Origin: Lysobacter helvus
GTDB lineage: Bacteria > Pseudomonadota > Gammaproteobacteria > Xanthomonadales > Xanthomonadaceae
Reading direction: 5' to 3'
NCBI RefSeq assembly: GCF_018406645.1
Contig: NZ_AP024546.1
Coordinates: forward strand, 1,240,001 to 1,304,000
DNA: 64,000 nucleotides
Part shown: positions 21,964 to 24,987 of the stretch, piece after piece
How positions within the stretch are numbered: the first letter of the stretch is position 1
How the letters are laid out: the number at the start of each line of letters is the position of its first letter
Notes under the pieces: generated by a model
The model's database searches: none
Told to the model about the DNA's origin: nothing
What the model saw: the letters and a program-made list of their open reading frames with translations, nothing else
Program-made: the position numbers and the translations under genes

Positions 21964-23853
21964 TCAGGCGACGCGCGTGGCGCGTGCGCGGGACAGGTGC
22001 ACGAGCAGCAAGGAGATCGCCGCGGGCGTCATGCCGGGGATGCGTTGCGCCTGGCCGATCGTCTGCGGCCGCACGCGCGCGAGCTTCTGCTGCACTTCGG
22101 CGGACAGGCCGCGCACGCCGGCGTAATCGAACGCGTCGGGGATCGGCGTGGTTTCGTGTTTCTGCTGGCGCGCGATTTCGTCGCGCTGGCGATCCAGGTA
22201 ACCGGCGTACTTCACGCCGATTTCGACCTGCTCGGCGACCTTGGCGTCGTCGACGCCGGGGGCGAGCGCGGGCACGGTCATCAGCTTCGCGTAGTCGAGC
22301 TCGGGCCGCTTCATCAGGTCGAGCGCGTTGGCTTCGCGCGTGAGCGTGATGCCGAGGGTGGCCTCGAGTTCGCGGCCGAGCGCGTTGGTCGGCGTGGCCC
22401 AGGTGCTGCGCAGGCGATTCGATTCGCGTTCGATCGCCTCGCGCTTGGCTTCGAAGCGCGACCAGCGTGCGTCGTCGACGAGGCCGAGGTCGCGGCCGGT
22501 CGGCGTGAGGCGCAGGTCGGCGTTGTCTTCGCGCAATTGCAGGCGGTATTCGGCGCGCGAGGTGAACATGCGGTACGGCTCGTTGGTGCCGTGGGTGACG
22601 AGGTCGTCGACCAGCACGCCCAGGTACGCCTCGTCGCGGCGCGGCGACCACGCGTCGCGCTGCTGCACGTGGCGCGCGGCGTTGAGGCCGGCGAGCAATC
22701 CCTGCGCGGCGGCTTCTTCGTAACCGGTGGTGCCGTTGATCTGGCCGGCGAAGAACAGGCCGGACACGGTCTTGGTTTCCAGCGAGGCCTTCAGCCCGCG
22801 CGGATCGAAGAAGTCGTATTCGATCGCGTAGCCGGCGCGCGTGACGTGCGCGCGCTCGAAGCCGCGGATCGACTGCACGAGCGCGAGCTGCACGTCGAAC
22901 GGCAACGACGTGGAGATGCCGTTGGGATAGATCTCGGCGACGTCGAGGCCTTCGGGCTCGACGAAGATCTGGTGCGAGGCCTTTTCGGCGAAGCGCACCA
23001 CCTTGTCTTCGATCGAGGGGCAGTAGCGCGGGCCGATGCCTTCGATCTGGCCGGTGTACAGCGGCGAGCGATCGAGCGCGCCACGGATGATGTCGTGCGT
23101 GCGTTCGCTGGTGTGCGTGATCCAGCACGAGACCTGGCGCGGGTGGTCGTCGTGCGAACCGACGAAGGACATCACCGGGCGCGGATCGTCGCCGGGTTGT
23201 TCTTCCATCACCGCGTAATCGAGCGTGCGGCCGTCGATGCGCGGCGGCGTGCCGGTCTTCAACCGGTCGACGACGAAGGGACGCTCGCGCAGGCGCGCGG
23301 CCAGCGTGGTGGCGGGCGGATCGCCGGCGCGGCCGGCGGCGTACTGCGTTTCGCCGACGTGGATCTTGCCGGCGAGGAAGGTGCCGGCGGTCAGCACGAC
23401 GGCGGGCGCTTCGAAGCGCAGGCCGGTTTGCGTGATCGCGCCGCGGACGGTGTCGCCGTCGATCAACAGGTCGTCGACGGCCGCCTGGAAGACGGTGAGG
23501 TTGGGCTGCGTTTCGACGATGCGGCGGATCGCGGCGCGATACAGCGAACGATCGGCCTGGCACCGCGTGGCGCGCACGGCGGGACCCTTCGACGCATTCA
23601 GCGTGCGCCACTGGATGCCGGCGGCATCGGCGGCGCGCGCCATCGCGCCACCGAGTGCGTCGATTTCCTTGACCAGGTGTCCCTTGCCGATGCCGCCGAC
23701 CGCGGGGTTGCAGCTCATCGCGCCGACCGTCTCGACGTTGTGCGTGAGCAACAGCGTGCGTGCGCCGGCGCGGGCGGCCGCGAGCGCGGCTTCGGTGCCG
23801 GCGTGGCCGCCGCCGATCACGATCACGTCATGGCGGAAGAAAGGGGACGTCAT
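21964..23853 (-). CDS. mnmG: tRNA uridine-5-carboxymethylaminomethyl modification enzyme MnmG (GidA)
   Basis: MnmG is a FAD enzyme that with MnmE modifies the wobble uridine of several tRNAs. The 629-residue protein has the FAD-binding [22 protein letters not shown]-terminus and [23 protein letters not shown]. The [12 protein letters not shown] and [14 protein letters not shown]-like blocks follow, here [17 protein letters not shown]. The C-terminal helical domain with [21 protein letters not shown] is also present. Length is typical. A -10-like TAGAAT (23883-23888, reverse) lies 30 bp before the ATG. Its promoter faces away from a sigma-54-type promoter upstream. MnmE is encoded 24 kb away in this window. 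Confidence 0.97.
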
Positions 23854-23934: not shown

Positions 23935-23950
23935 TTGGCACGCTTCCTGC
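23935..23950 (+). promoter_or_regulatory. Candidate sigma-54 (-24/-12) promoter
   Basis: TTGGCACGCTTCCTGC matches the RpoN consensus YTGGCACG-N4-TTGC at all positions but one (CTGC for TTGC). The invariant GG (23937-23938) and GC (23949-23950) have the exact spacing. Transcription should start near 23961. It points away from mnmG and towards a structured stretch that ends in a strong terminator. No enhancer site was identified. Confidence 0.7.
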
Positions 23951-23960
23951 GACATATCCC

Positions 23961-24076
23961 ATGCACCCGACATGACAAGGCGCCCAGTGCGCCGCCGGAT
24001 TGGAACAGGGGCCGGCAGCGTTACATGTAGGGGAAGCGCGGGGCCGAATGTCGGGGGACGTTCGGCCCCTTTTTTT
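23961..24076 (+). ncRNA. Candidate sigma-54-dependent small RNA
   Basis: About 116 nt lie between the -24/-12 promoter and the intrinsic terminator. The stretch has no plausible coding frame: an ATG at 23961 is followed by a stop after four codons. It folds locally into GGCGC/GCGCC (23979-23993), then GCCGG/CCGGC (23994-24017) enclosing ATTGGAAC, then the terminator stem. Several GGA or GGGG motifs are exposed in loops or linkers (TTGGAAC, AGGGGAAG, CGGGGG), which would suit binding by an RsmA/CsrA-type protein or pairing with C-rich RNA. The family is not recognised. The evidence is architecture only. Confidence 0.6.
24037..24076 (+). terminator. Strong intrinsic terminator of the candidate sRNA
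   Basis: GGGGCCGAATGT (24040-24051) pairs with ACGTTCGGCCCC (24058-24069), one G-T wobble included, with loop CGGGGG. Seven T follow at once (24070-24076). This is the most canonical intrinsic terminator in the window, and no annotated forward gene lies upstream of it. Confidence 0.88.
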
Positions 24077-24290
24077 GTCTGCGATTTGCCTGGCACCAGG
24101 CGCGATGCGCGCAGGGCCGCCTTGCGCGTTGGGTGGCCGACGCCCCGCGAGGTGCGGAACAGGGGGGATCCGTGGGTCCCCGAGGGGCGTCGACATGGGC
24201 GGCCTGCCGCGGCTTGCGTCGCAAAGCGACGTAGCCGGTCACTCGGGGCCTACTGTGCGACTGTCTTCCCCCGGGTGCAACCCTCCTGCG
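24077..24290. other. Intergenic stretch after the candidate sRNA
   Basis: No gene is supported here. It holds two small inverted repeats, GCCTGG/CCAGGC (24089-24102) and CGTCGC/GCGACG (24214-24228). The second lies downstream of the reverse-strand lipoprotein stop and could help end that transcript, though no T run follows. Confidence 0.4.
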
Positions 24291-24869
24291 TCACTCTTCC
24301 TTGCCTTCGGTCCGGATCTTTGCGCGTTCGGTGCGACCTTCGGCCGCATTGCCCTGGCTGCGCGGCGTCGGGAACGACTGCGGGGTCGGGAACGACTGCG
24401 GCGCCGGGAAGGACGGCGGCGGGGGCGGCGGGGAGACACCGATGTTCGGCCCGGTCACGCCCGGCGGGCGATATGGGCGATAGCCGTGGTTCGGGCGCGG
24501 CTGGCGCGGGACGTAGCGTTGCTGCGGGTAGTAGTGGTTCGGACCCGTGTATCCGGAGGGGTAGCCATAAGGCCCGTACACGTAGGGCCCGTGGTAGTAG
24601 CGCGGACCGACGTAGTGGCGCGAATGACGATAGGGATCCCAGGCGCCGTAGTACCCGCCGTAGCCGTAGCCATAGGCGCCGTAACCGTAGCCGTAGCCAT
24701 ACGGGCTGTAGCTGCCGTAGACGCCGCTGGGCGTGTGGTAGCGGTATTCCACGCGCGGGTCGCCGTAGTAGTAGTCGCCGCTGCCGTTGCCGGACTGGTA
24801 GGTGTAGGCCCCCGCGCAGCCGCCGAGGAATAGGGCGGCCGCGAGCGGCAGGATTCTCTGGATGGTCAT
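24291..24869 (-). CDS. Tyr/Gly/Pro-rich low-complexity lipoprotein
   Basis: This 192-residue predicted lipoprotein has lipobox LGGC (Cys18). The mature chain is extraordinarily rich in Tyr and Gly (YGYGYGYGAYGYGYGGYYG near residues 57-75). A Tyr/His/Pro block follows (HYVGPRYYHGPYVYGPYGYP), then a Pro-rich part. Near the C-terminus SFP(A/T)PQ repeats three times in tandem, encoded by an 18-bp direct repeat at about 24366-24410. It ends in a charged tail. No enzymatic motif. The ATG at 24869 starts the signal peptide. Function unknown; a surface-exposed, structural or adhesive role is only a guess. Confidence 0.8.
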   Translation of the reverse strand: MTIQRILPLAAALFLGGCAGAYTYQSGNGSGDYYYGDPRVEYRYHTPSGVYGSYSPYGYGYGYGAYGYGYGGYYGAWDPYRHSRHYVGPRYYHGPYVYGPYGYPSGYTGPNHYYPQQRYVPRQPRPNHGYRPYRPPGVTGPNIGVSPPPPPPSFPAPQSFPTPQSFPTPRSQGNAAEGRTERAKIRTEGKEE

Positions 24870-24987
24870 GTCGATCCCCTGTTCGTGGACGGAGGTTCCG
24901 CCCGGGGCGTTGAATCCGTGCTTAATTTTTCCCGGCAACGCCGTTGTACTCCCTGCTTCGTGTGATCAGCGTTTAGCATTCGGAGCC

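Follow-up and report, generated by a model that had tools for sequence, protein, structure and literature searches.

The window, the whole stretch of 64,000 nucleotides analysed here, encodes the small RNA asX1 behind a -24/-12 promoter element of the sigma-54 type and, facing it, a second structured RNA on the opposite strand upstream of mnmG. Sequence comparison gives the identity of asX1, the conservation of its promoter, the fold and strand of both RNAs and, within the window's family, the complementarity of their loops. asX1 itself was already catalogued. A sigma-54 promoter kept in front of it across much of the order seems to be new, and the conserved convergent RNA, which has no Rfam family, also looks new. 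We propose, with a probability of roughly 0.45, that asX1 is a sigma-54-switched antagonist of RNAs that expose a C-rich loop.

asX1 and its predicted fold

In a search with the Rfam models (Rfam 15), positions 23964-24075 of the plus strand matched RF02235 (asX1), scoring 76 bits where the gathering score is 70. The match covers the full length of the model (1-115 of 115, not truncated) and was the only one in the source genome, G000. Since it lies above the gathering score, the RNA, which extends to the end of its T-run at 24076, is an already known one, and the first-pass annotation was wrong to propose a new small RNA. Detection of asX1 has been reported for X. campestris (PMC4652430) and for cells of Xylella fastidiosa (PMC12189769). 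The passages on asX1 in these two papers name no regulator, target or role and mention neither sigma-54 nor a convergent RNA. A literature search that did not extend to the 2012 discovery paper found nothing joining asX1 with RpoN.

Of the 299 genomes searched in the order, 75 gave RF02235 under stricter filters. All 75 belong to the window's family, which has 79 genomes in the set; the 220 order genomes outside the family gave no copy with this model. The four family genomes without a match were read at mnmG. Three of them (G091, G245 and G278) hold a diverged asX1 with its promoter, for which the Rfam scores were 31-33 bits, below the cut-off, in two cases and unlisted in the third. Absence of both RNAs from these three genomes, as the model searches had suggested, was rejected because diverged forms of both lie upstream of mnmG. 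In G247 no asX1 was found on reading the mnmG region, and the convergent RNA is kept. Loss of asX1 through loss of rpoN was rejected as well, rpoN being present in all 79 family genomes.

The predicted fold of asX1 is branched, with CAGGGG and the GGGG of its terminator in exposed loops. Inside the family, the strand test on this fold gave 137 G-U against 27 A-C cells (59 of 72 distinct rows, 13 rows of four genera being left out); outside the family the counts were 60 and 6. The loop sequence GGAACAGGGG lies at 24002-24011 (+) with the core CAGGGG at 24006-24011, for which the mean unpaired probability in the window RNA is 0.72, and GAACAGGG is present in 74 of the 75 family copies. The intrinsic terminator at 24040-24076 (+) consists of 13 pairs (9 G-C), a GGGG loop of four and seven T. 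The first-pass annotation had thus rightly called it strong, with seven T, and had misread it as a 12-bp stem with the loop CGGGGG. A terminator-like end is found in 73/75 family copies. As claimed before, the ORF list holds no forward gene between the promoter element and the terminator. The two forward ORFs of 80 aa or longer that overlap 23935-24076 start with TTG and read through the terminator. An earlier remark on exposed G-rich or GGA motifs holds for the CAGGGG core, which is kept, and fails for GGA, which, among 62 distinct RNAs of other families, directly precedes the core in just 13 (only the site directly before CAGGGG was counted). A CsrA/RsmA sponge acting through GGA in the main loop was rejected on this ground.

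The sigma-54 promoter element

The -24/-12 element, TTGGCACG-N4-CTGC, lies at 23935-23950 (+). Its sequence, TTGGCACGCTTCCTGC, carries GG at 23937-23938 and GC at 23949-23950, ten bases apart, the correct spacing that the first-pass annotation had described. Both dinucleotides belong to a TTGGCAC/TGC context, and the predicted start follows about 12 nt later. Transcription had been placed at 23961; by our own count the -12 element predicts a start at about 23962, and the Rfam match begins at 23964.

The motif alone is not significant, because the window holds 11 matches to the -24/-12 consensus with at most two mismatches against 14.6 expected, and TTGGCA-N7-TGC occurs 18 times genome-wide against 13 for the reversed control. 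Its conservation, on the other hand, strongly supports sigma-54 control of asX1, as the earlier annotation had supposed. In all 75 Rfam-detected family copies the RNA is preceded, at 12-15 nt, by GG-N10-GC, and 66 of these promoters have at least 10 of the 12 consensus letters. TGGCA-N7-TGC lies ahead of 75/75 family copies, compared to 0.27% of shuffled 60-nt upstream stretches. The first-pass annotation had held that it would be refuted if close relatives did not keep the -24/-12 element and the terminator; both are kept. The promoter also accompanies the RNA when asX1 is inverted (L022) and when mnmG has been replaced as the upstream neighbour (L023). In L022, asX1 and its promoter are inverted together relative to mnmG and the lipoprotein gene.

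A scan of named genomes, a set that overlaps the family set, gave at least 119 stretches, 80 of which were examined. GG-N10-GC is kept in 71 of these 80; L097 has a promoter outside the search pattern with GG and GC intact. The titles of the 71 are Xanthomonas, Stenotrophomonas, Pseudoxanthomonas, Lysobacter, Thermomonas or less exact. The convergent element is present in 69 of them as well, the exceptions being L081 (Lysobacter profundi), where asX1 is inverted, and L138, which is truncated by the end of its stretch. The other nine loci have neither promoter nor convergent element, carry titles of other groups or simply 'bacterium', and are taken as unrelated chance hits. One contig, titled Bacillus subtilis SK7B5 (L108), carries a Xanthomonadaceae asX1 locus and is probably mislabelled or contaminated.

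Sigma-54 is encoded in G000 (one PF04552 match) and would drive asX1 in the cell. Inspection by eye of the 170 nt upstream, part of which is mnmG coding sequence, revealed no enhancer site common to the loci. In the Xanthomonas-type loci L002-L008 and L015, the asX1 start is preceded at a distance of about 53-68 nt by a CRP/Clp-like palindrome, TGTGA-N6-TCACA, from which L006 and L007 each differ at a single letter. The palindrome could act on either asX1 or the divergently oriented mnmG promoter.

A convergent structured RNA upstream of mnmG

asX1 had been described as free-standing. This is half right: asX1 is antisense and has mnmG on one side and a convergent structured RNA on the other. 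The ORF at 21964-23853 (-), by its protein sequence mnmG (gidA), is transcribed away from asX1 and is its usual neighbour: mnmG lies opposite asX1 within 700 nt in 72/75 family loci by motif, and in L069 by reading. On the other side, 154 nt beyond the asX1 loop, a second copy of GGAACAGGGG occurs within a long hairpin at 24136-24194 (-). Its loop on that strand, CCCCUGUUCC at 24156-24165, is the complement of asX1 24002-24011. The hairpin stands beside asX1 in 74 of the 75 family loci, the exception, L075, being at a contig end.

In an ungapped register we gathered 143 sequences (74 unnamed and 69 named, overlapping), of which 35 were set aside by a filter; 48 distinct rows resulted. For the model and the pair counts 30 of the 48 rows were chosen, a choice that leans towards structure. 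In the stem, 11 of 22 pairs are changed on both sides and 97.1% of the cells are paired; 0/500 shuffles were as high in these values, and slid versions paired 29-51%. The number of further pair types, the exception among five measures, was not above the shuffles (107 of 500 reached the observed value). Across all 48 rows, out-of-register ones included, there are 726 standard pairs, 152 G-U, 25 A-C and 153 other cells. The excess of G-U over A-C points to the minus strand and thus to an RNA that converges on asX1. In single-sequence folding the minus strand was more stable in 50 of 60 distinct sequences, with a G-U share little higher than on the plus strand (160/1301 vs 120/1283). A plain alignment (MAFFT and RNAalifold) gave little on either strand, slightly more on plus (-5.5 vs -3.3 kcal/mol), and on minus it recovered the inner stem alone.

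The covariance model of the convergent RNA found it in 148 of the 299 order genomes, 75 of the 79 family genomes among them, and the four remaining family copies were found by reading. Outside the family the matches listed score weakly, at 28-34 bits. In the other families, the convergent RNA has mnmG downstream of it, in the same orientation and no more than 700 nt away, in 72/72 loci, and in G247 the RNA ends 22 nt before the mnmG start. The convergent RNA is presumably made in the cell. In 40/74 family loci a promoter-like CTTG-N19..23-GCANNCT precedes it, a pattern present in 0.2% of mononucleotide shuffles, and 48/73 have a terminator-like hairpin behind it; by these patterns the window has neither. 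No Rfam model matched the convergent RNA, that of sX13 (RF02232) included. All 30 rows share the C-rich apical loop UCCCCCCUGU, the gathering pattern having included the loop, and CCCCUG has a mean unpaired probability of 0.85 (74 copies).

A coding reading of the hairpin (about 21 aa, MS..EIWIPPVPALSDIGA) was rejected because one-base length changes shift the frame (L028, L045, L051), the start codon is missing in some and the stem covaries. Beyond the convergent RNA lies a gene for a small Gly/Tyr-rich lipoprotein with the lipobox LGGC (24291-24870, minus). Regulation of this neighbour by the convergent RNA, by way of ribosome-binding sites with a G-run, is suggestive in many genomes, but such sites are absent in Xanthomonas-type leaders. 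GAACAGGGG stands just before the start codon of two lipoproteins, at G000:C1:2903002-2903020 (L201) and at 24867-24884 (-) of the window. Places of this type number six in the genome against one in a reversed control, and two of the six lead into no real ORF. We take the L201 TPR lipoprotein to resemble PilF/PilW; the second is the neighbouring lipoprotein. Between the likely promoter and the hairpin, many loci carry TGACC...GCGTCGC...TGACG-like repeats on the minus strand, for example L019, L030 and the window at about 24200-24240.

asX1-like RNAs in other families

Outside the family, 72 of the 73 loci with a match to the convergent RNA were fetched and read on the strand opposite mnmG. A -24/-12 element before an asX1-like RNA was found in 71 of the 72. 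In 67 it was found by pattern at the right distance from the CAGGGG core (shuffled rate 2.5%), and in four by eye: L213, L261 and L263 (TGGCCCG) and L228 (changed core). L214 has no such element on the strand read. Three of these loci (L213, L261, L263) carry a shortened form that has promoter, CAGGGGG core and terminator and lacks the branched 5' part.

The other-family RNAs have an asX1-like predicted fold; in the 27 of 62 distinct RNAs that were compared, both sides have changed in 15 of its 25 pairs. A covariance model built on those 27 was searched against 34 loci, including 28 from the family. It returned 33 matches up to E 10, and the top eight all lie at the asX1 place. Within the family it hit the right place and strand in 14/28 loci, six of them with E below 0.05 (best 0.003), the window's own copy not among them; the remaining, weaker matches lie elsewhere. 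Homology of these RNAs to asX1 is accordingly likely, not proven. The Rfam model matched none of the six other-family loci tested (L206, L207, L208, L213, L215, L216). On these comparisons, asX1 is probably older than its Rfam family would imply.

Complementarity of the two loops

In the 64 kb of the window, GGAACAGGGG occurs twice against 0.07 expected, both times in one of the facing loops. Within the family, CCCCUGUUCC and GGAACAGGGG share 9-11 contiguous complementary nucleotides in 74/74 pairs, which come from related genomes and are not independent trials. In family shuffles the mean match was 7.0 nt, and 3.5% reached the observed length. Where the asX1 loop has drifted (L070), 9 nt are kept through a shifted register. 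Outside the family (71 loci) the longest match averages 7.2 nt compared to 6.7 nt in shuffles, 51% of which were as good. CAGGG falls within the longest match in 52 of the 71 and outside it in 19. Two loci of another family have the match CAGGGGGAATC, which is lengthened on the opposite side and reaches 11. The other-family asX1 was taken as 115 nt, which can run into the hairpin, and one 16-nt match is probably an artefact. No compensatory loop change between asX1 and the convergent RNA was seen. With 9-11 nt in the family and chance level elsewhere, the sequences support loop pairing within the family and merely permit it outside.

Proposed mechanism and alternatives

In the reading that we prefer, sigma-54 RNA polymerase would start asX1 from the -24/-12 promoter. 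Given this type of promoter, asX1 would be made only when an enhancer-binding activator fires, and its transcription would end at the intrinsic terminator. The RNA would expose its CAGGGG loop and the GGGG terminator loop and pair loop-to-loop with RNAs that expose CCCCUG. The first partner would be the structured C-loop RNA lying head-on beside it upstream of mnmG, perhaps joined by sX13. asX1 would thus be a sponge or antisense RNA against C-loop RNAs. We read it as a sigma-54-switched antagonist because of the exposed complementary loops and the CCCCUG of sX13, and it may affect mnmG or other genes. A wider version of this reading is doubtful, namely a two-RNA switch across several families, in which asX1 and the C-loop hairpin kiss via CAGGGG/CCCCUG upstream of mnmG and antagonise each other, linking a signal sensed at the enhancer to C-loop riboregulation and perhaps to tRNA modification.

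The main rival is action in cis on mnmG, which we consider unlikely. Here antisense transcription and full-length pairing with an mnmG leader read through from the distal promoter would lower or reshape MnmG and so tie sigma-54 signals to tRNA modification. asX1 is antisense upstream of mnmG in 73/75 family loci, and the constant position of mnmG after the convergent RNA in the other families (72/72), like the 22-nt distance in G247, fits such action. By our own search, 25 of 73 family loci, the window included, have no terminator between the convergent RNA and asX1; the other 48, however, have a terminator-like hairpin on the mnmG strand before asX1. In many loci a separate -10-like element is also seen by eye between asX1 and mnmG, and the multi-branch fold and conserved loop of asX1 exceed the needs of a plain antisense RNA.

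Quite unlikely, in our judgement, is that asX1 has other targets, mRNAs or a protein, the match to the convergent RNA being an accident of two G/C-rich conserved loops. The chance-length complementarity outside the family would agree with this, but the placing of both window copies of GGAACAGGGG in facing loops (0.07 expected) and the retention of GAACAGGG in all family copies except one of 75 speak against an accident.

Distinctly improbable is sX13 as the main partner, asX1 then being a G-loop sponge through which active sigma-54 would release the targets of sX13. According to PMC3771888, sX13 uses C-rich loops to repress mRNAs that carry G-rich motifs. RF02232 is found (E 0.001 or better) in 146/299 order genomes and in 79/79 of the family, and at least one CCCCUG, the complement of the asX1 core, occurs in 35 of 40 sX13 stretches, flanks included. 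CCCCUG is, however, a short match in a C-rich RNA, counted without a shuffle control, and five of the 40 stretches lack it. That the -24/-12 match is no sigma-54 promoter at all but part of, for example, the mnmG promoter is highly improbable: the motif is not rare in a GC-rich genome and no enhancer site was found by eye in the 170 nt upstream, but the spacing is constant between the element and the RNA, not between the element and mnmG, and the element is still there with asX1 inverted or mnmG displaced.

A sigma-54 promoter kept in several families would give asX1 a testable regulator. The convergent covarying RNA, a neighbour of a tRNA-modification gene, adds a conserved element without Rfam match. 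A concrete target hypothesis for asX1 comes from the complementary loops that face each other.

Comparison with known systems

The RNA of the window is a full-length member of RF02235 above the gathering score. The passages on asX1 in PMC4652430 and PMC12189769 differ from our description in that sigma-54 and the convergent RNA do not appear in them. sX13 (RF02232) is described in part of PMC3771888 as a structured C-loop sRNA acting on G-rich motifs. The convergent RNA likewise has a C-rich loop, but it is a single long hairpin without RF02232 match, and asX1 represents the G-rich side. CrcZ and CrcY of Pseudomonas are, in a passage of PMC8657755, sRNAs from RpoN-dependent promoters that act as antagonists. 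They antagonise Hfq-Crc, whereas asX1 is proposed to pair with RNAs, and the likeness drawn here is one of promoter type and proposed mode of action. In Campylobacter jejuni, the RpoN-dependent sRNA CJnc230 has its effect counteracted by another sRNA, CJnc170; in contrast to asX1, CJnc230 is processed from a flagellar mRNA, and the abstract of PMC11187230 does not describe mutual pairing between them.
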